64,000 nt of DNA. It comes from Roseobacter sp. HKCCD6576-2. Lineage in GTDB: Bacteria > Pseudomonadota > Alphaproteobacteria > Rhodobacterales > Rhodobacteraceae. The position numbers were made by a program, and so were the translations under genes. A model generated the notes under the pieces. That model had not been told where the DNA came from, searched no databases, and was given only the letters and a program-made list of their open reading frames with translations. The DNA is taken from assembly GCF_013179285.1 (NCBI RefSeq), contig NZ_WVNW01000006.1, positions 1 through 64,000 of the forward strand, written 5' to 3'. Shown one piece after another: positions 12,007 through 30,063 of the stretch; position 1 is the stretch's first letter; each line of letters starts with the position of its first letter.

Positions 12007-13025
12007 GTGTGCTCCAGCGTCACGTGATCGGGACAGGGACAACTGATGGCCGGACCAAGCGGGATCCCAATCGGGCTGACCGGTTGCCGAAAGAGGCGGT
12101 GGTGCCCGCGCAAGGTGTCGATCCAGACAGCGGCGGGCCAATAGGACAGCGGGATGTATCGCCCGAGGCCTCCCGGATCGGCAGCACGGTTATCTATCGG
12201 GATCTCAGGCCAGGCGTCGAAGAACCCGGCGACGCAGGGGATCTCAGCCGTCGACTTCAGTCCCTGCAACCAGTCTTCGCTGCCGACACGTATCACGTTC
12301 GCAGCAAGAAAGAGCCAGGCACCACTTACGCCCGTACGATGTTCGAAGACCAGACGCTTGGGATGATCCGCAGGATAGGGGCCAAGATCCTTCGGGAGCC
12401 ACAGGGCCGAGGGCTCTTCGCCGGAATGGAACTGCGGACGGTCCTCTGAAGCAGGAATGCCGTTTTGCAGAGGATCGTAACGGTCGCCGCCGGGCGGCAG
12501 ATCCGCAGCCATAGGCATGATGCGTTTGATCAGGTCAGCATGGGTCTGGCGTTCCGGGGTCATCCAGTCGGGGGCGAGAGGGGCCGTGCCCCGCAGGCGT
12601 GTCGAGATGCGCCTCATCCCCCAGGCGATGGAGCTCTCCCGGCGCCGGGCCCGCTTTGCAGCAAAGACCTGATAGCGATCTGCAGGATGGCTGAGATACC
12701 AATCCAGCCTGTCCAAGAGTTTCAGGAGGGGGGATCGGTAGGACAGATCCTGGGGGTGGGGCAGGAGCTTCCAGGTCCAGGGGGCGAGGTTCACCGGGAT
12801 GCCGGCGTGGGCAGGCGGTCGGCGCTTGATCAGTCGGTTGAGCACCGATCCGCGTCGCGTCCCGGCGGGTGGATCTGAAAACACCAGAGTATCGGCGGGC
12901 AGGCCCGGCCGGATCCATGTGGATCTCTCCGCCGCTTCCTGTTGACGGGGGACAAGAGATCCTGGCTGGTCGATCCTACGATCTTCGCTTGGGCTGTCCA
13001 TCTTGCATTCCTTGGATCGGCTCAT
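12003..13025 (-). CDS. Unassigned conjugation-module protein
   Basis: I do not recognise this 340-residue protein. It has no signal peptide or membrane helix. It is rich in Pro, Arg and Trp and has several well-spaced aromatic motifs (APWTWKLLPHPQDLSYRSPL, DRLDWYLSHPADRYQVF, IPLSYWPAAVWIDTLRGHH). It lies between the coupling protein and the TraF peptidase, joined to both by ATGA overlaps, so it is almost certainly translated and part of the same function. A cytoplasmic role alongside the coupling protein is possible but not shown. Confidence 0.75.
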   Translation of the reverse strand: MSRSKECKMDSPSEDRRIDQPGSLVPRQQEAAERSTWIRPGLPADTLVFSDPPAGTRRGSVLNRLIKRRPPAHAGIPVNLAPWTWKLLPHPQDLSYRSPLLKLLDRLDWYLSHPADRYQVFAAKRARRRESSIAWGMRRISTRLRGTAPLAPDWMTPERQTHADLIKRIMPMAADLPPGGDRYDPLQNGIPASEDRPQFHSGEEPSALWLPKDLGPYPADHPKRLVFEHRTGVSGAWLFLAANVIRVGSEDWLQGLKSTAEIPCVAGFFDAWPEIPIDNRAADPGGLGRYIPLSYWPAAVWIDTLRGHHRLFRQPVSPIGIPLGPAISCPCPDHVTLEHT

Positions 13026-15619
13026 AGAGGCAGGTGTGGTTCAGGATCGGTCGGATCATCCGCGCTGCCATCTGTGTCCTGAGATCCGGGTTTCGGACCA
13101 AAAAGCATCGCCAATCGCTCATCGATCTCCTCCGGTTGGCGTCCCATGAGCGCTGCGATCGCGGCCGTGCTTTCAGCATTCTCGACATGCACTCTGAGCT
13201 CCTGGTCATCCGCGTCTGACCAACTCGCAACGGAGATCTCGGGCTTGTTTTGGGCCGCATCGAACAGATCGGCTTGTTGGATCTCTTTGGTCGACTGCGG
13301 CACTCTGTTCTTCGCCTGAACGTCAGGGGGTTCGTTCGGTCTTTTTCCGGTCTTCTCGCGGTCGCGCTCTTCAGGACCACCGGCCCCGGTCGCTCGCGCA
13401 ACTTTGGTAGCCGCTTCCGTTTCGCGATCTTCACGGTTGGATCGTGTGCTGACAAAGCGGAGTGTTTTGTTGCCGCTGGCTTTTGAGGCCTGGGCGCCAT
13501 CCGGGTCTCCCTGCCGCGGATCTCCGCCCGGAGCTCCGGTGTCTTGGCCCCTGCCTTTGGTGTTCGGTCGGTCGGTTCTGCGACGGCCGGCCTCTTGTGG
13601 TTCCACTTGCTCTATGGAGATCTTCTTCAGCACTTTGCTCCGGCGTTTCACGGCTGCCAATTCGTCTGCCACGGCCTCCGGTGTTTGCACCCGATCGGCC
13701 ATATCGCGACGGGTGAAATACACCGCCTTGCTGGCCAGGATGGGCGCCGACCGACGTGTCATGATCACCTGTCCATGAGCCGGCAACTGTCCGATCTCTG
13801 CGGCGGTCATGAGGGGCACCTCGCGCAACTGTTCGCGTTCGGATTCCGATGTGCTGCCGCGCATGGGGGACCACAGATCGCGTGAACTGGACGCATCGGC
13901 CGTCACGATACGCAACGTGTGGCGGCCGAGCATTTCGGAGAGATCGGACGCGTTGCGCCGGCTGCCCAAGGCGCTGATGATCCGGGCTTCACAACTGTCG
14001 AGCCAGGCATCGGCCCCGGCCGGTCCGCCCCAGGCTTTTTCGAGCTGGCCGAGGCTCTGGTAGATCAGCATCAGGTGCATGCCGATCGAGCGGCCCGCAT
14101 CCCGGATGTGCAGGAGTTCGGTCATGCCTTCCAGCACCCGGGCTTCATCGATCAGAAACAGGCGACGTGCCCGTGGTCGATCCGGTTGCTCAAGGAGTTC
14201 CGCGACCACCATCATGCCGCCGAGCAACAGGCGCGGGAAAGACGAGAAGTCCATTGCCGCGCTCGCCGGAAGGTTGATGTAGATATCCGTGTCTGGATCG
14301 AGGGCTGAAAGGTGTTCTACGGGTGACTTGGTTGAGTGGCCGAATTGGGCCACATCGGGAAATCGAAAGAGCGCCAGCTTGTTGGACATACCCTTGATGA
14401 CGCCGGGCCAGGTCCGCTCTTCCAATGCAGCCATCCCAAGAAGCTCATCACGGACGAATGCCATATCGTGCTTCGAGGCGTATTCGATTGCTTCGGAGAT
14501 GACTGTGTCTCTGCTGCGGTTGATAAACCGGGAAATCTCCATCGCTACATTTGGGCTTCTTTCCTCCACAAAATGTGCCGTCAGTGCCGCGAAGAGGTTC
14601 ACAGCCATCTCGTGGAAATACTCGCTATTGTCTGAGCGCCATTGCCCAAGCGGCATGAGTGTCTTGGCCATGCGCAGATAGACGGAGGGGGCCAGTGGTG
14701 CGAGCGGGGCGATCATCTTGAAGGGATCGAACCCGCTATCGGCATCGATCAGGACCGATTTGTATCCCATTCGCGCGCGCTCATGGCGCGTGCGGGCATA
14801 GAGATCGCCCTTGGGATCAAACACGACCAGCGGCCCTGCATAATTGAGGATGTTCGGAATGACGAGACCGGCAGTCTTGTAGCCACCTGACGCCGCAAAC
14901 ACGATCACATGGCCATTGCCCACGGCGGGATCGAGGGTGATCAGGTGGCCCTTGCCTTGTCGCCCCCAGGATCGCGCGACATTGGGATCGAAATTGGGGG
15001 AGTCCCGCAGGGGATCGGTGTGCTCGCCGATCACAATACCTCCGGGGTGATGGAAGCGTTTGCGCACATCGCGCTGACTGGCCCATTCCGCCTTGGTCAA
15101 TCCTGGCCGATCGCGGGTGCCGCGGGTATCGGCGCCGATCATGCCCCGGCCTGCGCGTTCAAACCATTTGAACACAGCCATCGTGAAGCGGGCCGCCACG
15201 AAGCAAGCGGCCAGTACCATGATCAGAAAGCCCGTCGCCGCATTGAAGGTGAAATCACTGGTGTAGTGGTAATCGAAGACGAGCGATCGGATCCAATCCA
15301 CCGCATCATCGAACACCCAGAGGGCCTGCCAGCCATCCTCCGTCCGCCACGGCCGAACCGCGTAGAGGACAAGACCCGGCACCCAGAGGATCCACATATG
15401 TGGTCCCCGTTCGTCCATCGTATAGGCTGCCACATGGGCCGCTGCGGCCGGCAGAAGGCAGACGGCGATGAGCCAGGGATCGAAGTGATCACGGTTGATG
15501 ACCTGACCAAGCCAGAGCTGGCGCAGGGCCAGAAACCCGATGGCGGTGATGAGGGCCACGGCGCTGAACCAAGCGAGAAACCTAGCGAAGGCACGAAGGC
15601 TGGATCGCGTGTCGATCAT
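13022..15619 (-). CDS. traG: Type IV coupling protein TraG/VirD4
   Basis: This hexameric inner-membrane ATPase feeds the DNA-relaxase substrate to the secretion channel. The 865-residue product has N-terminal membrane helices (about residues 12-33, 45-65, 75-90 and 125-148). A P-loop AASGGYKTAG follows at about 242-251, in the TraG form that ends in K-T. VVFDPKGDLYARTRH comes next, then the Walker B strand RRLFLIDEARVLEG. The C terminus beyond about residue 650 is a low-complexity, charged tail rich in Arg, Glu and Gln. It starts with an ATGA overlap on traB and ends with one on the next gene. Confidence 0.95.
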   Translation of the reverse strand: MIDTRSSLRAFARFLAWFSAVALITAIGFLALRQLWLGQVINRDHFDPWLIAVCLLPAAAAHVAAYTMDERGPHMWILWVPGLVLYAVRPWRTEDGWQALWVFDDAVDWIRSLVFDYHYTSDFTFNAATGFLIMVLAACFVAARFTMAVFKWFERAGRGMIGADTRGTRDRPGLTKAEWASQRDVRKRFHHPGGIVIGEHTDPLRDSPNFDPNVARSWGRQGKGHLITLDPAVGNGHVIVFAASGGYKTAGLVIPNILNYAGPLVVFDPKGDLYARTRHERARMGYKSVLIDADSGFDPFKMIAPLAPLAPSVYLRMAKTLMPLGQWRSDNSEYFHEMAVNLFAALTAHFVEERSPNVAMEISRFINRSRDTVISEAIEYASKHDMAFVRDELLGMAALEERTWPGVIKGMSNKLALFRFPDVAQFGHSTKSPVEHLSALDPDTDIYINLPASAAMDFSSFPRLLLGGMMVVAELLEQPDRPRARRLFLIDEARVLEGMTELLHIRDAGRSIGMHLMLIYQSLGQLEKAWGGPAGADAWLDSCEARIISALGSRRNASDLSEMLGRHTLRIVTADASSSRDLWSPMRGSTSESEREQLREVPLMTAAEIGQLPAHGQVIMTRRSAPILASKAVYFTRRDMADRVQTPEAVADELAAVKRRSKVLKKISIEQVEPQEAGRRRTDRPNTKGRGQDTGAPGGDPRQGDPDGAQASKASGNKTLRFVSTRSNREDRETEAATKVARATGAGGPEERDREKTGKRPNEPPDVQAKNRVPQSTKEIQQADLFDAAQNKPEISVASWSDADDQELRVHVENAESTAAIAALMGRQPEEIDERLAMLFGPKPGSQDTDGSADDPTDPEPHLPL

Positions 15620-16812
15620 GGGGCACCCTCCGCGGTGGACGTGTCCTTCAGGAGAAAGCCTCGTGTGGTTTCAGCATGGACGACCTCTGCTCCGATCAGA
15701 CCCACCATGGCGCCCGCCGACTTGTGCCGGAGATGCCAAACGGGGAGGGGATGAAAGGCCGTGTCGTTTGACAGCACGACAAAAGGCGCATCATGTGAGG
15801 AGCGATCCAACAGATGGGGCAGCCATATCCAAGGTAGAAAGGCCTCCAAACAGATCATGATCCGCCCATCAAACGGGTCATCGCTGGTGTCTGGTGGCGA
15901 GACGGCTGGTTCCATCCGGCTCCAGGTTCCCGTGACCGTCGGAATGCCCATCACGGCACGATAGATCGGACGAGGACTCCCAAACTCGTTGCAGACTTTC
16001 GGGTCAAAGCGCCAGACGGCGCCGCGACGCGTATCGCGATAGGGTTCGGAGACGCCAAGGAAGAGTGTCAGGTCCTTGTCGCGCGCCGCTCTGCACCAGA
16101 AGGCGGTGGCGCTGCGGTCTTCGGCGTCGAAAACGGATTCCCCAAGCACCGCCGTCGCGCCTTGCGGGAGCGCGTCGCGGATCAGGATCCAACCCACGCG
16201 TTCGGTCACGGTGATGGGTTCCGCAACCGTGCTCCAGCCCGCGCCCCCGGTCTGCACGGATTGATCCGTGTTGGCAAGGTGGACGAGTGCATAGATTCCG
16301 ATCAAGGCCATCAAACTGGCGGCAGTGTTCGGCACGTGCGCGCAGTACCGCGCCAGCTCCAGAAGCGCGAAGAGGGCCAATACGCCCACCAGCCCGAACA
16401 GGCCTGCACCGGGCAGGCTGTCCGCGAGCGGGAGCAGGGGGGAGGCCGGGAAAAACGGGATCAAGGTCAGCGCGATCACGAAGCCGGTGATCCCGACGCG
16501 CCCGGCCATGATTCCACCCAGGATCAACAGAAGACCGGCTCCAAGCATGACAGGAACGGCCATCCAGCCGATCCCGATCAAGCCCCAGGCGCAGACCAGC
16601 ACTGGTCCAAAGAGATAGCCTGCGGCTGCCCCTTGCCGCGCGTTTCGCGTACCAAGGATGATCGCAGCAACAAGGGACGCGCCGGGGATCCAGAGCGGTA
16701 CATCCGGATAAAAGATCACGGGCACCCATGTCACGAGCGCGAAGAGGAAGAGCACCGGCGCGTGTATCCGCATGGCCCAACCGGGCGCGGTATCAGAAGT
16801 ACCTGCCGTCAT
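15616..16812 (-). CDS. traB: TraB-like conjugation membrane protein with nitrilase-fold C-terminal domain
   Basis: The 398-residue protein has about eight hydrophobic segments in the N-terminal half, then a periplasmic CN-hydrolase-like domain. The domain shows a Glu motif AVLGESVFD, a Lys region RDKDLTLFLG and a Cys motif IMICLEAFLPW, the order of the nitrilase triad. This is the plan of Agrobacterium TraB and of apolipoprotein N-acyltransferase. The start at 16812 was preferred to 16842 because it gives the ATGA coupling seen at most junctions here. Its precise role in conjugation is unknown; acylation of a module lipoprotein is a possibility only. Confidence 0.8.
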   Translation of the reverse strand: MTAGTSDTAPGWAMRIHAPVLFLFALVTWVPVIFYPDVPLWIPGASLVAAIILGTRNARQGAAAGYLFGPVLVCAWGLIGIGWMAVPVMLGAGLLLILGGIMAGRVGITGFVIALTLIPFFPASPLLPLADSLPGAGLFGLVGVLALFALLELARYCAHVPNTAASLMALIGIYALVHLANTDQSVQTGGAGWSTVAEPITVTERVGWILIRDALPQGATAVLGESVFDAEDRSATAFWCRAARDKDLTLFLGVSEPYRDTRRGAVWRFDPKVCNEFGSPRPIYRAVMGIPTVTGTWSRMEPAVSPPDTSDDPFDGRIMICLEAFLPWIWLPHLLDRSSHDAPFVVLSNDTAFHPLPVWHLRHKSAGAMVGLIGAEVVHAETTRGFLLKDTSTAEGAP

Positions 16813-17915
16813 GCCGCCAGCCCCGATCTGGACACCAACCATGCGGCGGCCACAGCGTCCTGCACCGCCATCAGGCCCGCCCGGCGGTGGGTATCGTTGA
16901 AGTCCTTCTTGCTGCCCGATGGCTCAGGCGGCATCGCGATCCAGAGTTCGCAGCCGCGCCTGGCATGGTGGACCACGGAGCGCCAGAAGGCCCGGCCGGC
17001 CTTACTGTCCGGCGCATCCTGGTCCGGGGCCAGGACGATGGGCCGATCTGTGGGGAGAGGGGCCCGACTGAAGAAGGACGCGCCAAAGAGGGCCCAGGTT
17101 TCGACCCCGGTTGCGAGCCATAAGGACAGTGCCGTTTCTGGCCCTTCAGCTGCGATCAGACGATTGCTGTCTACACGGGCCGGAAAGCGGGCCGGATATC
17201 CGGCAAGAGAGCCAAAGGACGGCTTTGCGACTTCGCACCGGGCGCGCGTTCCATCGGAATTGATCAGGATGCGCTGGCCGCCCTGAATGCGCCCGGCGTC
17301 GTCTGTTCCCCAGACCACAAGTGCGGCGTGCTCGGGATGCCTGACATACAGCCTTGGCACGGGGGGTGCAAAAGACAGGCCCTCAGCGGGCCATGCCGTG
17401 ATGCCACGGGAGGTGAGGTAGGTTTCTGCCGGTGTCGTATCGATCGGGCGCGACGCGCTGCGGAGCGCGGCCACAAGCATCTTGCGATAGGCTTGCCTCC
17501 GGGCTTCCTGGTCCGCCTCCCGCTTGGAGCTCGCATCGTAGGCGCCACTATGGGGAACGGGCGTATCCGCAACCGATGCAACGCGGGCGGCCGCCTCCAC
17601 GACCTTTGGGAAGTCCTGGCGCGCAGAGTGCAGGCCACAGAATAGAATGGCCACGAGATCGAAGAGATCACCACCTTGATCCGCCGAATGGTCGAACCAC
17701 AGACCCCGCTCCTTGCCCTTCATGGTCATCGCAATGGCTGCGTCCTCCTTGGCCCGCCAGACTGTCCCGCTGCGGCGTTCCGGGGGGCCGAAAGCTTTCT
17801 CGAACAGATCCTCAGCGCGCTTTGCGAGTTCGGGCCGAACCGTGTCGGCCGAAATCGACCGAGACCGCCGGGGGGGATACGGCCTCCCGCGCTTTCTGAG
17901 GTTAATCGACGGCAT
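16809..17915 (-). CDS. Toprim-domain DNA primase-like protein
   Basis: The 368-residue protein has an N-terminal DNA-primase-associated region (RAKEDAAIAMTMKGKERGLW, HSADQGGDLFDLVAILF). A Toprim fold follows with the conserved Glu in LIAAEGPETALSLW and the Asp pair in IVLAPDQDAPDSKAGRAF. Such proteins accompany plasmid and ICE transfer genes and probably prime the transferred strand. I chose the ATG at 17915 because the long upstream extension would lie antisense to the lysozyme gene. It overlaps that gene's 3' end by 14 bases and traB by 4. Confidence 0.85.
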   Translation of the reverse strand: MPSINLRKRGRPYPPRRSRSISADTVRPELAKRAEDLFEKAFGPPERRSGTVWRAKEDAAIAMTMKGKERGLWFDHSADQGGDLFDLVAILFCGLHSARQDFPKVVEAAARVASVADTPVPHSGAYDASSKREADQEARRQAYRKMLVAALRSASRPIDTTPAETYLTSRGITAWPAEGLSFAPPVPRLYVRHPEHAALVVWGTDDAGRIQGGQRILINSDGTRARCEVAKPSFGSLAGYPARFPARVDSNRLIAAEGPETALSLWLATGVETWALFGASFFSRAPLPTDRPIVLAPDQDAPDSKAGRAFWRSVVHHARRGCELWIAMPPEPSGSKKDFNDTHRRAGLMAVQDAVAAAWLVSRSGLAA

Positions 17916-18675
17916 AAGGATCAAAGCCCCATTCATGAACGGAGGGTGTGAGGCTGTTGGCTTGCGCCGCCCCGCGCATCGCCGCTCGGACATCCTGGCG
18001 GTTAAGACGGATGGCGCCGAAGGCCAGCACTTCGGAATCCGGCACAGGCGCCTGCGCGACCGCGGCGCGGACCGGTGGAAGCACGACAGGCCCTCCGGCA
18101 ATCACCGCCAGCACAGCTTCAGGAGATGTGAGTGCGCGGTTGCCTGCAGTCCCGCGATAGACCGATCGACCACGATTGGGCCCGGTCAGAAGGGGCAGGG
18201 CGGCCCAGATGCCCGCCAGACAGTTTCCGAACCGGACGTGTTGCGCCGGGGGGCCGGGATCACCGCATTCGGCAATCAGGAGCCGCGCCAGACGATCCTG
18301 CATGGCCGGGTCAAAGCGCGCGGAGACATCGAGATTGTGTCGCTCGATCAGGCCGGTCAGGGTGCCATAGATGATCTGGTACCCGCCAGCGGCGGTGGAG
18401 ATCGCGCCTGCGCGGCGCACGTGTTGCTGCCAGGCCACCACCTCGGCCAATGTCATTTGCGTCAATGGGTGCGGTGGCGGGATCGGAATGCGCCGCTCGT
18501 AGTCATCATAGCCGCGTGGAGCTTCATGCGCCCGAATGAAGGTCAGGAGATCCGTCGTGACGCCAGGCGTGGCCTGTGCGCCACCAAGGCCAAGACAAAG
18601 TGCAAGGGCTGTCACGCTTGCAAAAATGTGGATCCCGTTCATGCGCACCCGAAATGTCTGACCCGTTGATCGCAT
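17902..18675 (-). CDS. Secreted lysozyme-like muramidase of the conjugation module
   Basis: The 257-residue protein has a signal peptide (hydrophobic HIFASVTALALCLGLGG) and a lysozyme-like domain. The catalytic-type Glu is in RAHEAPRGYDDYE, and the glycan-binding STAAGGYQIIYGTL follows, as in phage-lambda-type endolysins. It would cut peptidoglycan so that the secretion channel can be assembled, the VirB1 role. The ATG at 18675 follows AGAGGTCAAG. The domain is clearly paralogous to the N-terminal part of the adjacent fusion protein. The C-terminal 60 residues are not part of the domain and have no motif I recognise. Confidence 0.8.
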   Translation of the reverse strand: MRSTGQTFRVRMNGIHIFASVTALALCLGLGGAQATPGVTTDLLTFIRAHEAPRGYDDYERRIPIPPPHPLTQMTLAEVVAWQQHVRRAGAISTAAGGYQIIYGTLTGLIERHNLDVSARFDPAMQDRLARLLIAECGDPGPPAQHVRFGNCLAGIWAALPLLTGPNRGRSVYRGTAGNRALTSPEAVLAVIAGGPVVLPPVRAAVAQAPVPDSEVLAFGAIRLNRQDVRAAMRGAAQANSLTPSVHEWGFDPYAVD

Positions 18676-18684: not shown

Positions 18685-20013
18685 TTATTCTTGTGTGACG
18701 ATCTGCATGGCGGTGCGCGGCAACATCCAGAGCAGGACAACCATCACCACATCGAGCAAGACCATCCCCATGGCCGCGGCCGGCGGAAACAGCTCGGCCC
18801 GCATCATCCAGGCGAGATCGATAAAGACGCCAATGACGAGCAGGACAGCCATGATGGCGAAGCCAGACGCCACCAGGGACCGGAGGTATCGACCGGAAAT
18901 GCCGGTGGTCTCACGGAGCCCCCCAAACGCGATGCTGAGCAAGCCGGCGGCTCCGATCAGGAGCAGCCGAAAGCTCCAGTAGACGATGGCGGCAATCTGC
19001 AGGGCCAGCATGAGTTGAATGAACAGCGCGGTGACCTGAACCTGTGCCTGGATCAGGAACGGATAGGAGGCGAGGCCTTCAAAGAGCGAGTAGACCAGCG
19101 CCATGCGGGCGGCCGCAAAATCCGACAGGGCGAACGATCCTCCGTCCGACTGCACAAGGGACCGCGCCACGCCGTCGATCATGTCGACAAGGGCCAGAGG
19201 CTCCATGAGAACGATCATGCACAGCAGCACCACACCGAAGCGGAACACGAGACTCGAAAACCCACCCGGCAGGGAGCGTGATCCAATGGCCCACTGGCCG
19301 CCGCGCAAAACAAGATCGACCAGGAACAGCGTGAGCAGCATGCCGGAGGCGGCCGCGGCGACAGGTATAAACAGGGTCATGGCGGTTTCGACCATCTGAT
19401 CGAGCAACCGATCCCATTCAAATCCGATGCGGACCCCGCGCCGGATCGTGTCGGCCTCCTGTTGAACGTCAGCAACAGCGATGTCGCAGGAGAGGACACC
19501 CATATAGGTGTCGGCGCTGACGAGCGAATGATTGCCCGCGAACCCCTCATAGACCGATGCGCCTGCACCGGGCCCGCTGACACGCGGCAGGGCGGCCCAG
19601 ACCCGCGCGATGCGATTGGCGGTCTCAGGGGACGCATCGCCGTCGCGATAGCCGGTCTCGCGAAGCAGATGCCGTCCGAGACGATCCTGGGTGGCCGCAT
19701 CGAAGGTGTCCGATCGCGAGACGATGCCCTGATCGACTAGACCTTGAAGCGTGCCCCGAATGATCTGGTACTGGCCAGCCGCCGATGACACGGAGCCTGC
19801 GCGCACGGTGCTGCGTTGCCAGTCCAACACCTCACCTACTGACATCGTTGTGATGGGCCGTGGGGGGTGCGTGCGGACCCCATAATAGACCGTGTCGTAG
19901 CCGCCCGGCGCTTCCAGAGAGCCGATGAGCTGCAGCAGGGTGTCTTCATTGCAAGCCCGCGCCGAGAGGGCGGCAAAAACCGACAGGAGGAACGCCAAGC
20001 TGATCGATTTCAA
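18685..20013 (-). CDS. Lysozyme-VirB6/TrbL fusion protein
   Basis: The 442-residue product joins two secretion functions. After a signal sequence (ISLAFLLSVFAALSARA), about residues 20-180 form a lysozyme-like domain (SLEAPGGYDTVYYG, SVSSAAGQYQIIRGTL). About residues 205-442 form a polytopic VirB6/TrbL domain with at least six hydrophobic stretches (TLFLVDLVLRGGQWAIG, LLLIGAAGLLSIAFGGLRET, LVASGFAIMAVLLVIGVFI). I find no in-frame ATG; the best start is TTG at 20011-20013, just before the signal peptide. The frame upstream of it is antisense to brnTA. A separate TrbL also exists in the operon, so this one may form part of the channel while opening the wall around it. Confidence 0.75.
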   Translation of the reverse strand: MKSISLAFLLSVFAALSARACNEDTLLQLIGSLEAPGGYDTVYYGVRTHPPRPITTMSVGEVLDWQRSTVRAGSVSSAAGQYQIIRGTLQGLVDQGIVSRSDTFDAATQDRLGRHLLRETGYRDGDASPETANRIARVWAALPRVSGPGAGASVYEGFAGNHSLVSADTYMGVLSCDIAVADVQQEADTIRRGVRIGFEWDRLLDQMVETAMTLFIPVAAAASGMLLTLFLVDLVLRGGQWAIGSRSLPGGFSSLVFRFGVVLLCMIVLMEPLALVDMIDGVARSLVQSDGGSFALSDFAAARMALVYSLFEGLASYPFLIQAQVQVTALFIQLMLALQIAAIVYWSFRLLLIGAAGLLSIAFGGLRETTGISGRYLRSLVASGFAIMAVLLVIGVFIDLAWMMRAELFPPAAAMGMVLLDVVMVVLLWMLPRTAMQIVTQE

Positions 20014-20094: not shown

Positions 20095-20391
20095 ATGGAA
20101 TCTGTGAGGATTGAGTTCGACGAGGCGAAGCGGGTTGCCACCCTGAACGAGCGTGGCTTGGATTTCCTCGACGTCGCGCATCTGGACTGGACGACCGCAC
20201 TGACTGCCCAGGACGCTCGGAAGACCTATGGCGAGCTTCGGTTCGTCACGATCGGCCTGATAAATGCGCGTCTGTGTGTCGTTGCGTGGACGCAACGTGA
20301 GAGTGCGCTCAGGGTGATCAGCCTGCGCAAAGCCAACAAGAGAGAGATTGCGAGATATGACACATTCTGGACCCCCAAAGCCTCTGATTGA
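20095..20391 (+). CDS. brnT: BrnT-family ribonuclease toxin
   Basis: The 98-residue protein fits BrnT: IEFDEAKRVATLNERGLDF, a central LRFVTIGLINARLCVVAWTQR and a C-terminal ISLRKANKREIARYD. BrnT is a RelE-fold toxin that cuts RNA. It is encoded just before its antitoxin and overlaps it by 35 bases. The pair is on the plus strand inside an otherwise minus-strand operon, between virB10 and the lysozyme-VirB6 fusion. An AT-rich stretch at 20046-20095 probably contains its promoter. Confidence 0.9.
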   Translation: MESVRIEFDEAKRVATLNERGLDFLDVAHLDWTTALTAQDARKTYGELRFVTIGLINARLCVVAWTQRESALRVISLRKANKREIARYDTFWTPKASD

Positions 20392-20590
20392 TGCGGATGG
20401 AGAAGTCACCGAGTTGGGAGAGGCCTTTTTTTTAAGGGCCCGGCCTGGACGTCCGGCATTGCCGGTTGGGGAGAAGCGCGAACGCGTGAACCTGATGCTG
20501 GACCCGGAACTGCGCGCCGCGGCCAAGGCGCGGGGTCTCAATCTCAGCGAACGTGTCAATGCCCTTCTGAGAAAAGACTTGGGGCTGTAG
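20357..20590 (+). CDS. brnA: BrnA-family antitoxin
   Basis: The 77-residue protein carries a C-terminal ribbon-helix-helix region (RVNLMLDPELRAAAKARGLN then LSERVNALLRKDLGL) typical of BrnA. BrnA binds BrnT and represses the shared promoter. The ATG at 20357 was chosen over a TTG three codons upstream. The toxin-first order and overlapping frames are usual for this system. It may stabilise the island. Confidence 0.9.
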   Translation: MTHSGPPKPLIDADGEVTELGEAFFLRARPGRPALPVGEKRERVNLMLDPELRAAAKARGLNLSERVNALLRKDLGL

Positions 20591-20651: not shown

Positions 20652-21791
20652 TCACCGCGCACGCCTCGGCTGTGCGGGCAGTTGCATGTCGCGTTCCACG
20701 GCGACGTTGAGCAATGTACCGGCATTAACGCGAAACCGCGTCCCGCGCGCCAGGAGGTCGCCAAGATGCTGATCGGTCACGCGGGAGGTGGCGCTGCCGG
20801 TGGCAGCGCGGGCCAGATAGGCCAGATCCCCATCGGGTTGCGGATCCGATCCGGTGATGATCTCGGTCGCGTTGCCGGCGAGATCGAAGAGCACCGAGGC
20901 GCCAAGCGCAGTCCAGAACCCGCTTGAGCGCCGCCCCTGAACCCCACTCATCGCATCGTCACCAATGGCGCCAAACCCCGTCACATCGAGGGGCGTCCCG
21001 TCAGCCAATCTGAGATCCGTCCAGGTTATGAAGAGACGTTGCTGGCCGGCAGCTGCATTGCTGCCGTAGGTCCCGACCAGTGTTGCCCCGCGCGGGATCA
21101 ACAGATGCCCGCCGGTGAGGCTGTCATAGACATCGCGATTGACCGTGGCGCGCACGAGGCCGGGCAGGCCCGAGTCTATCGGTGACATCAGCACCGCCGG
21201 GATCACCGCCCCCCGGGCCAGGAGATGTGTCGGCGGACCGCTTTGCGGTTGTTGAGTGGGTGCGGGTGCCTGTGTCGCATCGGAACCGGTCACGCTGTCC
21301 CCCGGTGGGGCGGCGAGTTGTGGGATGGTGCCGGTTGTCTCGGCCGCAGATCCTCCTTCGGGTGCTGCCGGAGCCGGGGCGGGATCTGAGCGTGCGACCA
21401 GCGCCGCGGGTTCCTCGACAGCCGGTGTGAGGGGCGAGTCTGCCGCCAACCTGGCGCGCTCCCCCAATCTCGCTTGCTCCGTCGTGGCTTGCTCCCGCAC
21501 AAGTTGCAACCTGCGCTCCGTCTCCGGGTCGATCGGCGGGGTGTTCGGGGTGGCCGAGGCGGCCGGGACCGGCGCGGGCGCGGGTAGAGGGGCGTTGTCG
21601 ATGCCAAGCGCATCGACGCGCCGCGTCAGATCCCCCGGTTCCAGATCGACCGGCGCAACCTGTCGGTCTCCCAGAAGCGGTGTGAGCGTGACACCGCCGA
21701 GGAGACCCAGAACCAGGGCGGCGGCCACAAGGAAGAGGGTGGGGCCCAAGCTCCGGCCGGTCAGCGGCCCGTTTGTGTTCGGGGCACTCAT
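20652..21791 (-). CDS. trbI: TrbI/VirB10 secretion-channel protein
   Basis: VirB10 spans both membranes and links the ATPases to the outer-membrane pore. The 379-residue product has one N-terminal membrane helix (about residues 17-37), a long Pro/Ala-rich periplasmic linker (to about 190), and the conserved C-terminal barrel domain with LLARGAVIPAVLMSPIDSGL, LLIPRGATLVGTY and TRFRVNAGTLLNVAVERDM. It is joined by ATGA to the VirB8 gene upstream. Its 3' end is followed by brnTA on the other strand. Confidence 0.95.
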   Translation of the reverse strand: MSAPNTNGPLTGRSLGPTLFLVAAALVLGLLGGVTLTPLLGDRQVAPVDLEPGDLTRRVDALGIDNAPLPAPAPVPAASATPNTPPIDPETERRLQLVREQATTEQARLGERARLAADSPLTPAVEEPAALVARSDPAPAPAAPEGGSAAETTGTIPQLAAPPGDSVTGSDATQAPAPTQQPQSGPPTHLLARGAVIPAVLMSPIDSGLPGLVRATVNRDVYDSLTGGHLLIPRGATLVGTYGSNAAAGQQRLFITWTDLRLADGTPLDVTGFGAIGDDAMSGVQGRRSSGFWTALGASVLFDLAGNATEIITGSDPQPDGDLAYLARAATGSATSRVTDQHLGDLLARGTRFRVNAGTLLNVAVERDMQLPAQPRRAR

Positions 21792-22465
21792 GACAGTCTC
21801 ACGAGATCGAAGTCTTCGATGATCATGCCAAGCGGGTTTTCCAGCAGAAGACGATCATCACGAACCGTGCGTTGTCCAAGCACGAAGGTGGCCTGATAGC
21901 GCTGTATCGGTTCACTTTGTCCTGACGAACGATCGCGCCGTGTCTCGGTCCATTCGACCAGCCAGCTGCGCCCCCCGACCAGGACCACCGAGGCCACGAC
22001 GATGTCGACGGAATAGGTCTCCGCCGTCCGAAACGGTGAGGTTGCCGGATCCCGCGCCCATTCGATGATCTTGCGGTCAGCGGCCGAGTTCTGTTCCAGG
22101 AAGTACTGGATGCTGCGCAGCCGGCCTTCCATCACTGATCTGTCGGTGGAGACAGAGCGCCAATCCCGCACGAAGGAGGACAAGGTGTATCGGATCACCG
22201 GGTCTGGCCAGTCACGGATCTGGCGAGGCGACAAGACCGGTTGTGGGCGCCCGAGGGTATCGACGGCCACGATATAGGGCACGTATTCGGAGCGGACCGC
22301 CGCCCAGATGCCGAACGCGATCGTGACGCTTGCCAGGGCAAGACTGCCAAACGCGATGCGGCGCCAGTTGTCGCGTTCCTGCGCCAGCGATCCGTGCTGG
22401 CGTTCCCAGGCCCGTCGCGCCCGCTCCTCGGGGCGCACGGGGACGGTATCAACCTGATCACTCAT
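21788..22465 (-). CDS. trbF: TrbF/VirB8 inner-membrane protein
   Basis: The 225-residue bitopic protein has a short cytoplasmic N terminus, a membrane helix at about 40-60 (IAFGSLALASVTIAFGIWA) and a periplasmic NTF2-like domain ending in LLLENPLGMIIEDFDLVRL. VirB8 nucleates channel assembly through contacts with VirB9 and VirB10. The ATG at 22465 overlaps the trbL stop by 4 bases, which decides against the longer frame. Confidence 0.92.
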   Translation of the reverse strand: MSDQVDTVPVRPEERARRAWERQHGSLAQERDNWRRIAFGSLALASVTIAFGIWAAVRSEYVPYIVAVDTLGRPQPVLSPRQIRDWPDPVIRYTLSSFVRDWRSVSTDRSVMEGRLRSIQYFLEQNSAADRKIIEWARDPATSPFRTAETYSVDIVVASVVLVGGRSWLVEWTETRRDRSSGQSEPIQRYQATFVLGQRTVRDDRLLLENPLGMIIEDFDLVRLS

Positions 22466-23592
22466 TCCTGGTTCCCCCTTGGACCGGATCGCATGCGCTC
22501 CATGACCGCGCTCCCGATCTGTCCGCGATTCGCGATGGTTCCCCAATCAAGAGAGGTTTGACCGGCACCTCGGGCCATCGAGCTGGCCATGCTCATCGCG
22601 CCGGAACCCTTGGCCGCGAGCGCGCCGGCTGCCCCGCCGACCAGAGCGCCGCCCGTGGCCGCAACACCTGTCGTGGCGGTGGTTGTTGCCGTGCTTCCGA
22701 CCTTGGCGCCAATGGCCTCGGACGCGCTGGAGCCACCGGCCGCTCCGGCGATCAGGCGCTCAAGCGTGGAGGGCAAGGTCAGGACCAGGATGACACTGAC
22801 GATCTGCAGGAGAAGAACCGCCATGACGCTCTCGGGCCCCGTGCCATCGGCCCGCGCCAGGGTCAGGGTGATCTCCTGCGTGGCATTGATGATGATCAGG
22901 AGACCCATCAGGCGGAAGCCTTTGCCGACCAGCATCAGGACATAGGAGGTGGCGATCTGCCGGGTCTCTGACAGTCCGGCAAAGCCGAGCGTGATGATGC
23001 CCGCAAGGCCAACAAGGTAGAGTTCCGCATAGATCACCACGACCATGGCGACCTGTATGGCGAGCACGATGATCGCGACGACGGCCGCGATCAAATAGAA
23101 ATAGGTCGACGGTTGCCGGAACCGCATCTCGCCGAGCCATGAGGTTGCCCGCGAAAACCCGTCGCGGACCAGATCGGAGGGTGTGATCACGGAGCTTCCA
23201 TCGACGCTGCCAGCAATGTCCACGGCCGTCGCGGCGAGCCAGTCAACGATTTCCGGAACGATGGTTGCGAAAAGCCAGACGAGGGAGACGATGCCGATCG
23301 TATAGACCATCGGCTGTGCAAACTCATCGAGGCCCTGGCCCTGGATTGCCCATTTGCCACCGCGCCAGACAAACTCGATCAGCAAAAACCCCAACAGGAT
23401 CTGTTGCGCGCGCTGGCCAAGTGTGTCGCCAATGCGGTCAAGGGTGTTGGCCATGTTCTCGATGGCATTGTCGAGGGCGCCGCCCGCACCGGAAGGTTGT
23501 GCGAATGCGGGATCGGCAAGGGCCACAAGCAGACCCACCGCGGTGGCGGTAATCCCGAACCGGATCAACAGGGGGTGTGCAAGAGCCCGCAT
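22462..23592 (-). CDS. trbL: TrbL/VirB6 polytopic channel protein
   Basis: The 376-residue protein has a signal-like N terminus (LVALADPAFAQ), an amphipathic segment with LGQRAQQILLGFLLIEFVWR, five or more membrane helices between about 60 and 285, and a C-terminal tail rich in Ala, Gly and Thr. This is the plan of TrbL, the inner-membrane part of the translocation channel. The start at 23592 lies one base after the trbJ stop. It is the second VirB6-like protein in the operon, after the lysozyme fusion. Confidence 0.92.
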   Translation of the reverse strand: MRALAHPLLIRFGITATAVGLLVALADPAFAQPSGAGGALDNAIENMANTLDRIGDTLGQRAQQILLGFLLIEFVWRGGKWAIQGQGLDEFAQPMVYTIGIVSLVWLFATIVPEIVDWLAATAVDIAGSVDGSSVITPSDLVRDGFSRATSWLGEMRFRQPSTYFYLIAAVVAIIVLAIQVAMVVVIYAELYLVGLAGIITLGFAGLSETRQIATSYVLMLVGKGFRLMGLLIIINATQEITLTLARADGTGPESVMAVLLLQIVSVILVLTLPSTLERLIAGAAGGSSASEAIGAKVGSTATTTATTGVAATGGALVGGAAGALAAKGSGAMSMASSMARGAGQTSLDWGTIANRGQIGSAVMERMRSGPRGNQE

Positions 23593-23593
23593 C

Positions 23594-24490
23594 TCAGTTT
23601 CCGATCCCGAAGATCTCGTTGAGGGAGCGGCCGCCGCCCGCGTCGCGGAGAGACTCGAGGGTCTCATGCACCTCCCGCTCCTGCAGGCGCTCCGCGGCCT
23701 CCTGCCGGTCGAGATCCCCAAGAACGCGGCTCCAGGCAATTGCGGTCTGTTCCGCTTGCGTGGCTGTCAGGGTGCGCAGATCGTTCAGTTGGCGTGCCAT
23801 GGACGCTGCCATGAGATTGGCGCCCTGCAGAACCTGCATTTGTCCGACCTCGCTGCCGAAGCGCGATTGCACCGCATCGATCAGGTTGGCTTCATTCTCC
23901 ACGGCGTCGAGGGAGAATTGGGATTGCCGCAGGTTGGTTTCCAGGGCGGCATTCCAGCGGTTGTTCCAGTCCGTATAGCTCGTGGCGATATCGATCCGAT
24001 CAAGCCCGCGGCGTTCGAAATGCGGATCGGTGATCAGATCCGAGCGCAGGAACTCATCGAGCTGGACCCCCGATTGCACGAGACCGCCAACCTCATCCCC
24101 GATCTCGCGCAGCCGCAGGATGGGGCTGAGCACGTCTCCGAGCATCTGCTCGGGCAGTTGCTCAATGTTCCGGCGCATGAGCCGATACGAGTCGATCTGC
24201 GTGTGGAGTTGCTGCGCCTCGGTGGCGAGGCTTTCGACTTCGGTGGCGAGGCTCCGGCTTTCGAGCCTGGCGATCGAGGCAAGTTCCAGGTAGTTCAGTA
24301 TTTGCGTCCATTCGGTCGCCACACCCGTTCCACCTGCGCCAGCATGGGCTGCGCCTCCGGATCCCATGAGATCGGGAGCCAGAAAGCAGGTCGAAAGCGC
24401 CAGCGCGAAAAGCACCCGACCGTGAGGGTGTTGCGCTTCTTTACTCGGCCGCGCTCGCCCTGCGCAGATCGATATTGCCGTCCGTGTCAT
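23594..24490 (-). CDS. trbJ: TrbJ/VirB5-like secreted pilus component
   Basis: The product is a mostly helical periplasmic protein (AAHAGAGG, then WTQILNYLELASIARLESRS and long heptad-like segments to NEIFGIGN), as in TrbJ, a minor pilus-tip or channel component. The ATG at 24490 gives 298 residues but overlaps virB4 by 50 bases. A GTG at 24415 would remove the overlap and leave the hydrophobic signal LFALALSTCFLAPDLMG close to the N terminus, so the start is uncertain. Confidence 0.85.
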   Translation of the reverse strand: MTRTAISICAGRARPSKEAQHPHGRVLFALALSTCFLAPDLMGSGGAAHAGAGGTGVATEWTQILNYLELASIARLESRSLATEVESLATEAQQLHTQIDSYRLMRRNIEQLPEQMLGDVLSPILRLREIGDEVGGLVQSGVQLDEFLRSDLITDPHFERRGLDRIDIATSYTDWNNRWNAALETNLRQSQFSLDAVENEANLIDAVQSRFGSEVGQMQVLQGANLMAASMARQLNDLRTLTATQAEQTAIAWSRVLGDLDRQEAAERLQEREVHETLESLRDAGGGRSLNEIFGIGN

Positions 24491-26837
24491 GGTAGAGATC
24501 CTCCGTCCAGAACTCAGGGTGGGTGGCCGCCCTCGCCAGCGCCGAGGCGCTGTGCTCCGATCCGGTTCGGCCAAGGATGGATAGGGCGGCAGGCCCCATC
24601 GGCAGACTGATGATGCGTCGGCCATGGGGTTGCATGAGGTAGAGGTCGCACTTGGGCTGAATGCGCGCCACGATGTCGATCTGCGCAGGCTCAAGGCCGA
24701 GATCACTGTATTGCGTTCGCGTGGCCCGTGTTTCGGCTTCCGGGTTCGGCAGGAAGATACGTGTCGGGCAACTCTCCAGGAGATCGGCCGTGATCTCGGC
24801 CCGGGCCGCATCAGCAACGGATTGGGTCGCCATGACCACGGCGATGTTGTTCTTGCGCCCTTCCTTCAGCCAGGACCGCAGGCGACGGACAAAAAGATCA
24901 TGGCCGAAGAAGGACCAAGCTTCGTCCAGCACGATGAGCGTCGGTCGACCGTCAAACCGCGCTTCCGTCTCGGCAAACACATAGTCGAGTGACAGGATCC
25001 GGACGGCCTCGCTGGCTTCCAGCATCGTATGGGTCTCGAACACGGTGAACCGGGACTGGCCAAGCGTGGCGGCGATATTTGCCCCGTCTTCATCGAAGAG
25101 GCCGGCCAAAGGCCCCTCGATCCAGGCCATGAGCACCTGCCGCAGGGCTTTGTCCTGCACAAATTCCCAGATCCGTTGCAGCGAGGCCGCCGGAGCGCCC
25201 GCATCACTGGCCGCCCGGGTCAGGCCCGAGAGGGCGGCCCTCAGTTCCGCCGCCTGATCCGGGGAGGGTTTGCCATCAAGGCCCATCTCCACCAGAGCGG
25301 TGAGCCAATCGAGACCCCATTGCTCGCCGAGGCGCGGCAAATGGGCGAGGGGTGCGATCCCGGTGCGCCCGGCGATACCTGGCTCGAGAAAGGCGCCCCC
25401 CATGGCCTTGCAGGCATGGGCGATCGAGCGCTGGCGGTCGAAATAGATGACCTGGGCATCCGGGTAGCGCAGCCATCCCGAGACGATCTGACCAAGCAGG
25501 ACCGATTTACCGGCCCCGGTCGGTCCGAAGATCAGCGTATGACCGACATCCCCATGATGGAGATTGAGGTGAAACCGCTCTCCGGTGCGCGCCCGCGCAG
25601 GCAACAAGGCCCATGTCTCTGGCGGCAGGCGAGGGGAGGGGCAGACGGGGCTACCTTGCCAGATGCCGCGCACCGGCATCAGATCCGCCATGGCTTGCGC
25701 GCGCATCAGCACCCGCCGTTCGTTGATGTCGATATGTCCGGGCAAGGCCGACAACAGGGCCGGCAAGGCGTTCCCGGTCTCATAGCGGAGCCGGTAGGCG
25801 GCATCATCGGCCGCCGCTTCCAGGATAGAAATGGCGTCGTTCAGGCCCCCGTCACCTTCGGCACGGGTTGCATGCAGGATGAATTGAGATGAATACCAAC
25901 CATGGCCTTCCTCTCCCCGTGACAGCCGCGCCAGCACGCCTTCGAGGCTGCCGGCCATCTGATCGCCATAGCGATCGCGGCGGCCATGGCTCTGGCCGCC
26001 GATATTCGCCATGAAATCGGCCGCAGCCTGCGTCCAGAACCGTTGCTGCCTGCGCACCTCGGCGCGGGCCGTGCGATTAGACAGGGCCTGGTAGCGCGTG
26101 ACCCATGTGAAGGGCAGTGGAAGGCTCTGGAACCGCTCCATGGGCAGGAGATCGTAGCGATTTGGCAGGCCCTCCAGCGACAGGATGGCCACGGAGCGGC
26201 CGTCGATCTGCAGACCCCCGGCGCGAGACGGTTGCCGAACATCGGCCCCAAGGAGACGATCGAGGCCCACCGGCAGATCATCGGGTCCGAACCTCGGCGC
26301 GGGGCTGCCCGGCGCAAGCAGGCCCGAGAGCGCTTCGCAAAACGGACAGGGGGCACTCACATGGGCCGGGCGAAGCCGGTCAAAGACCAAGGCAGATTTA
26401 AACCGGCTTTCCAGGCGGGTGCATTCCTGATCGAGGCGGGCGAGATCCTTTGACAGATCCCCATCATCGGAGGGCTGCAGGGAGAGGAAGACAAAGAGCC
26501 GATCCTCCCAGGTATCACCGCCATCGGCCAAGAGGAAATGCGCCTCCAGCGCCAGCAAATCGAGCGCGGCCTGGCCGGTTTCGCGCGGGATGTCGTCCGG
26601 ATCCGGGCGCCAGGGGCGACGGTTGTAAACCACCCACAGCGCTTCCCCGTCTGTCATCCCGCTCAGGGCAAAGCCAAGGTGGCGCAGACGTCCGGCCACA
26701 GCGTTCGGTTCCATGCTCTCCGTGTCGATGCCACTGACCTGCCATCCGGCCAGCAGGCTACGATCCTTGCAAAGCATGACACCCGGCGCGACCAGGACCT
26801 CCCAATTGAGGATGTCTATGAAGCGACGCACCGGCAT
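24441..26837 (-). CDS. trbE: TrbE/VirB4 secretion ATPase
   Basis: VirB4 is the large ATPase that powers pilus assembly and DNA transfer. The 798-residue product has the CagE/VirB4 N-terminal half, then the motor domain with Walker A GPTGAGKS (about 438-445), Walker B PTLIVLDEAWSFFG (about 632-645) and RNNIA/VVMATQSVADA-type arginine and sensor segments (KNNIAVVMATQSVADA). The ATG at 26837 overlaps the stop of the lipoprotein gene by one base (TGATG). No inactivating change is seen. Confidence 0.97.
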   Translation of the reverse strand: MPVRRFIDILNWEVLVAPGVMLCKDRSLLAGWQVSGIDTESMEPNAVAGRLRHLGFALSGMTDGEALWVVYNRRPWRPDPDDIPRETGQAALDLLALEAHFLLADGGDTWEDRLFVFLSLQPSDDGDLSKDLARLDQECTRLESRFKSALVFDRLRPAHVSAPCPFCEALSGLLAPGSPAPRFGPDDLPVGLDRLLGADVRQPSRAGGLQIDGRSVAILSLEGLPNRYDLLPMERFQSLPLPFTWVTRYQALSNRTARAEVRRQQRFWTQAAADFMANIGGQSHGRRDRYGDQMAGSLEGVLARLSRGEEGHGWYSSQFILHATRAEGDGGLNDAISILEAAADDAAYRLRYETGNALPALLSALPGHIDINERRVLMRAQAMADLMPVRGIWQGSPVCPSPRLPPETWALLPARARTGERFHLNLHHGDVGHTLIFGPTGAGKSVLLGQIVSGWLRYPDAQVIYFDRQRSIAHACKAMGGAFLEPGIAGRTGIAPLAHLPRLGEQWGLDWLTALVEMGLDGKPSPDQAAELRAALSGLTRAASDAGAPAASLQRIWEFVQDKALRQVLMAWIEGPLAGLFDEDGANIAATLGQSRFTVFETHTMLEASEAVRILSLDYVFAETEARFDGRPTLIVLDEAWSFFGHDLFVRRLRSWLKEGRKNNIAVVMATQSVADAARAEITADLLESCPTRIFLPNPEAETRATRTQYSDLGLEPAQIDIVARIQPKCDLYLMQPHGRRIISLPMGPAALSILGRTGSEHSASALARAATHPEFWTEDLYHDTDGNIDLRRASAAE

Positions 26838-27310
26838 CAAGGACGGCTCGCATAGGTGTCAGGAGCGAGATCCTGCACGCTGACCGCTGATGCCGCGATA
26901 ACGCCGGTACGGACCGGACTGTAGGATCGGCTGATCCGCAGGCTTTCGCCGATGCTGGCCACGGCCGAGACCGTATCGGCATCGATCCGGTCAATGCGGA
27001 TGTCGAAGGAGGCGCCGCCAAGGCCCATCTCATCGATCCGGAATCCAGCCTGACGGAGATAGTCCAGCGCATGGCGTTCGCACTCATTGGCCCGGGACGG
27101 AGCGAGAAGGACGGTCTGGCGCAGCGACACCCGGTTGTGGATCTCGCGGGCCATGTCAAAACCGATGGCGCAGTTCTGCGCGTCCGTCAGGCGCGCATCC
27201 CCAAACACGAAGCGGTTTTCCCCGAAGTTCGACGCGGACATGAAGAGCGTGTTCCCAGGGGTGCATCCCATGACCAGAAACAGGGTTGAGAGGAGGGCCG
27301 CCTTGCGCAT
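26837..27310 (-). CDS. trbH: TrbH/VirB7-like lipoprotein
   Basis: The 157-residue protein begins with a lipoprotein signal ending in the lipobox LVMGC (Cys at about 16). The mature part is compact with no other membrane segment (FRIDEMGLGGASFDIRIDRI). Its place between VirB9 and VirB4 genes and its size match TrbH, an outer-membrane lipoprotein that stabilises the core complex. The family match is by position and lipobox rather than strong sequence recognition. Confidence 0.75.
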   Translation of the reverse strand: MRKAALLSTLFLVMGCTPGNTLFMSASNFGENRFVFGDARLTDAQNCAIGFDMAREIHNRVSLRQTVLLAPSRANECERHALDYLRQAGFRIDEMGLGGASFDIRIDRIDADTVSAVASIGESLRISRSYSPVRTGVIAASAVSVQDLAPDTYASRP

Positions 27311-29908: not shown

Positions 29909-30063
29909 GGCGCTGCCTCCGCTGATCCGGTCTGGCCCTGCGGAGCATCGGTCGCGACCACCGTGAACCAGTGATTTACATCATCCAGAGACACGATGAC
30001 AGCAAGGACAATTGCGGCCGCGATGGCGAGCAAGGCATAGTCTGACCAGTTCAGGTCGGACAT
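29905..30063 (-). CDS. Small single-pass membrane protein heading the trb operon
   Basis: The 52-residue protein has one membrane helix (about residues 9-26, ALLAIAAAIVLAVIVSL) and a short polar C terminus. It is not a family I recognise. It is the first gene of the minus-strand operon, coupled by ATGA to virB11, and lies where a VirB1- or VirB2-type gene is often found, but it resembles neither. Translation is supported by the overlap. The function is unknown. Confidence 0.65.
   Translation of the reverse strand: MSDLNWSDYALLAIAAAIVLAVIVSLDDVNHWFTVVATDAPQGQTGSAEAAP

Follow-up and report, generated by a model that had tools for sequence, protein, structure and literature searches.

TrbN of P-type systems is grouped with VirB1 (SLT/GH23), and the Gram-positive hydrolases PrgK and pIP501 TraG are membrane-held. 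No T4SS channel subunit with a peptidoglycan cutter of its own is known to us. The R endolysin of phage lambda is a lytic transglycosylase of the GH104 family, with E19 as its catalytic residue. The time and place of wall opening in the assembly of a T4SS are not settled, VirB1 being thought to act early and as a free enzyme. In the available text of PMC12624023, VirB1 acts first and the stalk comes after the outer-membrane complex. For the R388 VirB6, only helices 1 and 2 are described as seen in the membrane, and helix 1 is presented as a strong candidate for pilin recruitment (PMC9259494, available text). The N-terminus of VirB6 is given as periplasmic in Agrobacterium and Helicobacter and as cytoplasmic, by gold label, in R388 (PMC4182333, available text).

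We analysed a stretch of 64,000 nucleotides from Roseobacter sp. HKCCD6576-2 (contig NZ_WVNW01000006.1, positions 1 to 64,000), hereafter referred to as the window. In a sequence-only reading of this DNA, one frame had been described as a secreted lysozyme-like domain joined to a polytopic VirB6 domain, with the remark that VirB1-type hydrolases and VirB6 are normally separate. The fusion of a lysozyme-like and a VirB6-like half is real, and we describe below its two halves, its occurrence in other genomes and the part that it might play in a conjugation machine.

The fusion gene and its operon

The frame at 18685-20013 of the reverse strand runs through 442 residues without a stop or frameshift. 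Other intact copies were found in L005 (Ruegeria atlantica), in L006, L007 and L010 (one MAG), in L011 (a second, related MAG) and in G029; L010 agrees with L007 in its fusion and its neighbour proteins and is not counted separately, giving six intact fusions in four lineages (the window, R. atlantica, G029 and the two related MAGs). Neither a stop nor a frameshift, either of which had been named as speaking against the sequence-only reading, lies between the halves in the window or in the five other intact copies. These five align with the window protein from end to end, with 50-54% identity, so the fusion is not due to chance. A hydrophobicity scan of the window protein showed a hydrophobic N-terminus, followed by soluble residues (22 to about 213) and six hydrophobic segments. 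With the TrbL matches given below, this bears out a polytopic VirB6-like domain following a lysozyme-like one in a single chain. The layout of the gene, as predicted, is as follows.

18685..20013, minus strand: fusion gene (442 aa), with signal peptide, GH104-like lytic transglycosylase domain and VirB6-fold domain; start codon uncertain
19954..20013, minus strand: predicted signal peptide (residues 1-20), a hydrophobic stretch with cleavage possible before C21
19483..19953, minus strand: GH104-like domain (residues 21-177), from phrog_90, hhalign, 1am7 and pLDDT
19912..19914, minus strand: codon of E34, aligned with E19 of lambda R
19426..19482, minus strand: linker (residues 178-196), mostly one helix in the model
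18688..19425, minus strand: VirB6-fold domain (residues 197-442), placed on R388 TrwI residues 2-271 by Foldseek and VIA-align

The candidate starts are TTG codons at 20013 and 20049, and no Shine-Dalgarno sequence was seen at either in the window; the open frame extends as far as a GTG at 20655, which overlaps the stop of trbI. The L005 fusion starts with an ATG overlapping the trbI stop. Signal-like N-termini were recognised by hydrophobicity in the four fusions scanned (window, L005, L006 and G029), and their counterparts are aligned in the other intact fusions.

The neighbouring genes of the window are listed below, with the families that they matched.

13022..15619, minus strand: TraG/VirD4 coupling protein (PF02534, 1.3e-48)
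16809..18101, minus strand: DUF7146-Toprim primase-like gene, ORF bounds, overlapping the free lysozyme gene (PF23639, 2.1e-13; PF13362, 1.8e-10)
17902..18675, minus strand: free secreted GH104-like paralogue (257 aa), directly downstream of the fusion, with AGAGG before its ATG
20095..20391, plus strand: BrnT toxin, between trbI and the fusion (PF04365, 6.3e-21)
20348..20590, plus strand: BrnA/CcdA-like antitoxin (PF07362, 6.6e-5; PF14384, 1.4e-4, under cut-off)
20652..21791, minus strand: TrbI/VirB10 (PF03743, 1.1e-37)
21788..22546, minus strand: TrbF/VirB8 (PF04335, 2.2e-30)
22462..23739, minus strand: ordinary TrbL/VirB6, ORF bounds, true start probably inside (PF04610, 2e-12; TIGR02783, 4.7e-31)
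23594..24817, minus strand: TrbJ/VirB5, ORF bounds (NF010416, 1.8e-25; TIGR02780, 7.2e-23; under cut-offs)
24441..26840, minus strand: TrbE/VirB4 (NF010447, 9.2e-108, under cut-off)
26837..27310, minus strand: small lipoprotein-like gene in the VirB7 position, named from its position, with matches in L005, L007, L009, L011 and L012
27310..28569, minus strand: TrbG/VirB9 (PF03524, 3.2e-37)
28570..29007, minus strand: TrbC/VirB2 pilin (PF04956, 1.1e-9)
28988..29908, minus strand: TrbB/VirB11 (PF00437, 4.1e-36; TIGR02782, 1.5e-76)
30012..30623, plus strand: VirB3/TrbD-like gene, divergent from the operon (PF05101, 1.2e-6)

Judged by its family matches, the operon is a full Trb-type set, in the order TrbB, TrbC, TrbG, lipoprotein-like gene, TrbE, TrbJ, TrbL, TrbF, TrbI, fusion and free lysozyme, followed by the DUF7146-Toprim gene, a protein without a family match and TraG/VirD4. 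The small lipoprotein-like gene matched no family in Pfam or NCBIfam. The TrbL gene at 22462-23739 is the ordinary VirB6 that had been noticed in the operon from the sequence alone, and beside it lie a free wall cutter and one predicted, from sequence and model, to be tethered. The free paralogue has 41% identity with the enzyme half of the fusion; with an enzyme of the same family encoded next door, the fusion is not replacing a missing hydrolase.

A brnTA pair stands at this site, in the same orientation, in L006, L007, L009 and L011 as well; L005, G029 (L043) and L012 gave no match to BrnT or BrnA. Its insertion may have cut a translational coupling of the fusion to trbI.

Several other features of these loci were recorded. 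Adjoining the trb operon, 30834-46727 holds a type IVb pilus-like cluster (a weak prepilin peptidase, a T2SSE ATPase, a secretin and a TcpQ-like protein). An IS110-type transposase at 8815-10422 (PF02371 at 4e-17 for 8815-10119) lies beside genes with weak TraF and TraD matches; its part 10123-10422 resembles the N-terminal part of an IS110 transposase by eye and had no Pfam match. No MobA/MobL or PF03432 relaxase match was found in the window. Giant MobA/MobL relaxase frames are present at L110:633-12320 (minus strand, 3895 aa), L111:1364-12313 (plus strand, 3649 aa) and L112:4846-15393 (minus strand, 3515 aa); L110 and L111 are on contigs bearing the G636 and G029 fusions, and L112 is on another contig of the window's genome. 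The two of these frames scanned with Pfam, L110 and L112, carry helicase/AAA domains and DUF7146, and L110 also carries Toprim. VirD4/TraG is fused in frame to a DUF7146-Toprim primase domain at L005:11531-15697 (plus strand, 1388 aa) and L043:5331-9380 (minus strand, 1349 aa), these being two separate genes in the window.

The enzyme half

Residues 22-175 matched the PHROG endolysin family phrog_90 (2e-16). In hhalign, the enzyme half was aligned with lambda R with a probability of 96.3 (E 1.9e-9), E34 falling on E19 of R and the R motifs GYD, S-AG-YQ, QD and WA-LP being brought into register; LEAPGGYD and SSAAGQYQII, the motifs singled out in the sequence-only reading, are both present and aligned to those of lambda R. 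An hmmsearch of the PDB with a 32-row enzyme-domain profile found the lambda lysozyme chains 3d3d and 1am7 at 3e-4. The whole-chain model had a pLDDT of 78, with the blocks of the enzyme half mostly at 90 or above, and in VIA-align this half gave Z 10.7 to 1am7 (134 aligned, rmsd 3.7) and Z 11.6 to a cyanophage baseplate protein. PDB 11mn chain A, a '66 kDa protein', matched the enzyme-half profile at 6.7e-7, better than lambda lysozyme did.

Foldseek of the whole-chain model gave no lysozyme among the 14 matches listed, and neither the enzyme half nor the relatives tested matched a lysozyme family in Pfam or NCBIfam. With phmmer against the PDB, the fusion protein had no match and the free paralogue had one only, at E 0.4. 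No SLT domain was found in the fusion or the free paralogue in Pfam or NCBIfam at E up to 1, and an SLT/VirB1 identity of the enzyme half is thereby ruled out. The sequence-only reading is right as to a lysozyme-like domain with its Glu, but the comparison with VirB1-type hydrolases needs correction, since the domain goes with the lambda R family rather than with SLT/GH23. Every intact fusion, six in all, retains E34, and so do 38 of 39 family rows with a residue at that position (41 rows in total). Loss of catalytic residues together with absence of the fusion from other genomes, which had been named as a ground for abandoning the idea, was thus not seen, the Glu being kept in the five other copies. 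On profile and model evidence, the enzyme half is a lambda-endolysin-type (GH104) lytic transglycosylase domain with predicted activity.

The VirB6 half

Residues 202-440 matched TIGR02783 (TrbL) at 5.8e-7, below the cut-off of the model, and residues 201-439 have 28% identity with the TrbL of the same operon (1e-21). The scores of the window VirB6 half lie under the cut-offs, with 13.8 against 25.9 bits for PF04610 and 29.2 against 128.85 for TIGR02783, and G636 (24.1) and G029 (21.4) also fall under the 25.9-bit cut-off of PF04610. When the VirB6 half was folded alone (pLDDT 67.8), the eight best Foldseek rows were all TrwI (E 4.3e-5 to 1.6e-2), and VIA-align gave Z 14.6 to TrwI over 238 residues, the best unrelated row reaching 9.8. 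With the whole-chain model, TrwI was again first in Foldseek, but with E values of 0.13-1.9, and the second half had Z 11.8 to TrwI and 10.1 to a designed helical protein. Because a common arrangement can bring helical bundles to a Z of about 13, more weight is given to the ranking of the rows and to the sequence relationship with TrbL than to Z by itself. Alignments A3 and A4 were left out of the full-length fold, the TrbL rows of A3 having fallen partly on the enzyme half and A4 having given lower identities, and helices 1-2 of the VirB6 half were modelled with low confidence (pLDDT about 55). Since the structural alignment starts at TrwI residue 2, the enzyme stands ahead of a complete VirB6 core. 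From its sequence and its model, we conclude that the VirB6 half is a diverged TrbL paralogue with a predicted complete VirB6 fold.

The number of residues past the last hydrophobic segment is 11 in the window, 14 in L005, 9 in L006 and 41 in G029. The three TrbLs scanned have more than 100 residues after the matching segment, and this long C-terminal tail is missing from the four fusions scanned. After the signal-like segment, five segments were counted in the window TrbL and the L012 TrbL, and six with a weak seventh in the L005 TrbL. A GKxFKLM-like stretch of the five TrbL rows of alignment A6 is absent from the VirB6 half in that alignment. Lacking both the long tail and this stretch, the VirB6 half might serve for anchoring or docking and stay outside the stalk.

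Helices 1 and 2 behind the enzyme are joined by a loop with charges of +3/-1 in the window, +3/0 in G029, +2/-1 in L005 and +1/-2 in L006. A positive loop, as in the first three, would be consistent with an enzyme in the periplasm, a loop in the cytoplasm and a VirB6 body lying mostly in the periplasm, the arrangement described for R388 (PMC9259494, available text); the L006 loop does not support that topology.

Occurrence in other genomes

One genome per species, for 84,980 species, was scanned with six exact peptide patterns, and 9 loci were confirmed. Besides the intact fusions of L005, L006, L007, L010 and L011, these include L008, L012 and L013, with an enzyme half and no VirB6 half, and L009, where the fusion is frameshifted inside its VirB6 half. 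In a truncated copy, G636:C8, the enzyme half and linker are kept at 82% and no VirB6 half was found by tblastn, the profile having run slightly past a TAA. G306:C260 was rejected as a fusion: the profile reached the VirB6 half with two TGA, and tblastn showed the enzyme half only.

Full-length matches were obtained in 2 of 394 genomes of the family draw (own genome and G029), 2/390 of the order draw (own and G636), 2/147 close relatives (own and G029), 1/385 of the class draw (own) and 2/394 of a second family draw (G636 and G029). The draws overlap, the E limits ranged from 1e-20 to 1e-30, few candidates were scored per genome, and the L005 contig is one of G636, with the same length and proteins.

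The fusion was matched by 35 of 72,556 plasmid records and 134 of 50,697 phage records, none over 80% of the query. The VirB6 half had no match in plasmids at E up to 0.1, and no TrbL relatives were confirmed in viral contigs. As a control, the enzyme-domain profile was run against 38 TrbL loci of a phylum draw (30, and 8 more having long frames, out of 88 listed places spread over 58 of 269 genomes); it matched none of them, and 3 of 3 fusion loci. In ten of these TrbL proteins, Pfam gave no other domain with an E of 0.001 or less. Fusions of this kind are rare and, within the genome, plasmid and phage searches made, known only from Rhodobacterales.

The order trbI, fusion, free lysozyme is shared by the window, L005, L006, L007, L011 and G029. 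The survey of other islands proposed with the sequence-only reading thus recovered the fusion in three other lineages, in frame, with its Glu and in the same place of the trb operon. The L012 operon is without a fusion, which shows the fusion to be dispensable.

Relatives of the enzyme half were also seen near mobF and a gene for a T4SS DNA-binding domain in L030, L032 and L033 (Maritalea, Pukyongiella and Phaeobacter plasmids), two of them being annotated as glycoside hydrolase family 104. GH104 enzymes may serve as the VirB1 of several alphaproteobacterial systems.

Conservation and origin of the two halves

Between the window and the other fusion-bearing loci, identity is 69-77% for the enzyme half, 39-43% for the VirB6 half, 40-46% for the ordinary TrbL and 54-66% for the free lysozyme. 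Few stretches of the operon are as well conserved as the enzyme half, which only parts of TrbG equal (75-80% to the window over 64-105 residues in L007, L011 and L009; 65% over 331 in L005). Among distant pairs, the VirB6 half has changed at a higher rate than the enzyme half. By NG86, dN/dS is 0.105 for the enzyme half and 0.079 for the VirB6 half between L006 and L011, and 0.147 and 0.165 between L007 and L011; between L006 and L007 it is 0.733 for the enzyme half, uninformative at a dS of 0.008, and 0.293 for the VirB6 half. NG86 values are quoted because YN00 failed in at least one half for 14 of the 15 pairs, and in between-lineage pairs dS was about 0.8 or more, or undefined. Both halves are under purifying selection in the closest informative pairs.

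In a 16-row tree, the VirB6 halves formed one clade against ten TrbLs (100/100), with a long stem (2.12). The rows were chosen, and L093, L094 and L046 are absent, having no TrbL at E 1e-3. The enzyme halves formed one clade of eight among 41 rows (99/96), in a tree whose rows were likewise chosen and include 7 of 32 viral loci. Because the halves of the fusions cluster among themselves, separately from the free lysozymes and from the TrbLs, a recent duplication of the neighbour genes is ruled out. The trees, which cannot prove it, fit one origin, with the halves inherited together since. The window TrbL groups with that of L012 (95/93); since the L012 operon is without a fusion, there has been loss or horizontal exchange. 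In the enzyme-profile alignment A5, the near-invariance of FDAATQD partly reflects the way the loci were picked, by exact peptide patterns (six in the genome scan, two in the viral scan).

Possible role of the fusion

We propose that the protein is a secreted, inner-membrane-tethered lytic transglycosylase of a conjugative T4SS, a VirB1-like activity tied to VirB6; judged from sequence and model, the chances of this are about even. The fusion probably ties wall cutting to the site of machine assembly, and cutting at the channel itself, as suggested in the sequence-only reading, may be part of this. Under this proposal, the signal peptide would export the enzyme half into the periplasm, the VirB6 half would dock at the stalk base, where it would be a minority subunit next to TrbL or lie against it, and peptidoglycan would be cut along the path of the stalk and pilus. 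Such a chain would amount to a VirB1 joined covalently to VirB6, with the free paralogue as the usual diffusible VirB1 substitute. Against this role speak the separation of the fusion from trbI by brnTA and the lack of a visible Shine-Dalgarno sequence in the window, the missed TrbL cut-offs and the missing tail, the L006 loop, the low model confidence for helices 1-2, the damaged copies and the L012 operon without a fusion, and an R388-like cytoplasmic VirB6 N-terminus, if valid here, would speak against a periplasmic enzyme. With a hydrolase borne by a VirB6-like subunit, the site of cutting would be set, and a test by single-residue change or gene removal could show whether cutting is needed at stalk or pilus insertion too.

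With VirB1 acting first and the stalk following the outer-membrane complex, a VirB6-tied enzyme would act later than the free one. In a tentative elaboration, which we think somewhat unlikely to be right as it stands, the wall is opened in two steps: the free GH104 enzyme would make a first gap for the outer-membrane complex, and the VirB6-borne GH104 domain, in a minority stalk subunit next to the likely pilin-recruitment helix, would act at stalk or pilus insertion.

An alternative is that the VirB6 half is a membrane anchor only, a relic TrbL fold that keeps the enzyme at the inner membrane near the machine and is never in the stalk. It would account for the missing TrbL tail, for the missing GKxFKLM-like stretch, which the five A6 TrbL rows keep, and for the faster divergence of this half in distant pairs. 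This appears doubtful to us: one helix would suffice for a bare anchor, the model still covers the whole TrwI fold, the 39-43% identity resembles that of TrbL itself, and dN/dS is low in the informative close pairs. Cleavage of the exported chain, giving equal amounts of a free lysozyme and of a second VirB6-like subunit, is improbable. The linker of about 20 residues is less conserved than the enzyme half, and Agrobacterium VirB1 is processed to VirB1*; however, the next gene already makes a free paralogue, and no conserved protease site was seen by eye in the aligned linkers. We give still less credence to a decaying passenger without a role of its own, with the free lysozyme and TrbL doing the work: damaged copies in L009 and G636:C8, the absence from the L012 operon and the lack of a visible Shine-Dalgarno sequence in the window would suit it, but six intact copies persist in four lineages, E34 is kept in every one of them, and the close pairs that are informative have low dN/dS values. 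An assembly or sequencing artefact joining two genes is ruled out, since the halves meet at the same point and in the same frame in R. atlantica, G029 and the two MAGs as they do in the window.

Comparison with known systems

The enzyme half resembles lambda R in fold, in profile match and in the position of E34 on E19. However, lambda R is a free lysis enzyme, whereas the domain of the fusion has a signal peptide and is joined to a membrane subunit of a conjugation machine. The VirB6 half is like R388 TrwI/VirB6 over the whole fold in the model, and like the P-type TrbL through its sequence relation to the TrbL of the operon; it differs from both in its N-terminal enzyme, in the lack of the long C-terminal TrbL tail and in being a second copy beside an ordinary TrbL.

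The expected role, the opening of peptidoglycan for the machine, is that of VirB1 (PMC12857230, PMC12624023, available text). VirB1, an SLT/GH23 enzyme, is described in these sources as soluble in the periplasm, whereas the fusion belongs to another family and is predicted to be membrane-tethered. Extended VirB6 proteins, such as RvhB6 of Rickettsiales, likewise add an extra soluble part to a VirB6 core, and several VirB6 copies per system are common to them and to the operon described here (PMC12857230, PMC2653234, available text). The window fusion has their feature of at least five hydrophobic helices with a large hydrophilic domain, six segments following soluble residues 22-213. However, in the available text of these sources the extra parts are central, C-proximal or flanking and no wall-cutting function is named for them (PMC12857230, PMC2653234), whereas the extra domain of the fusion is N-terminal, not central or C-proximal, and is a recognisable enzyme. 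The Gram-positive VirB1-like hydrolases PrgK and pIP501 TraG are also multidomain wall-cutting proteins of T4SS, but the domains given for them in the text available to us are hydrolases (SLT, CHAP, MUR, LytM), and a fusion with VirB6 is not described there. No VirB6-lysozyme fusion was found in the open-access literature, as far as its available text goes, which does not prove absence elsewhere. The free and the fused enzyme together suggest that one family of conjugative elements has acquired a phage-type lysis enzyme in two forms.
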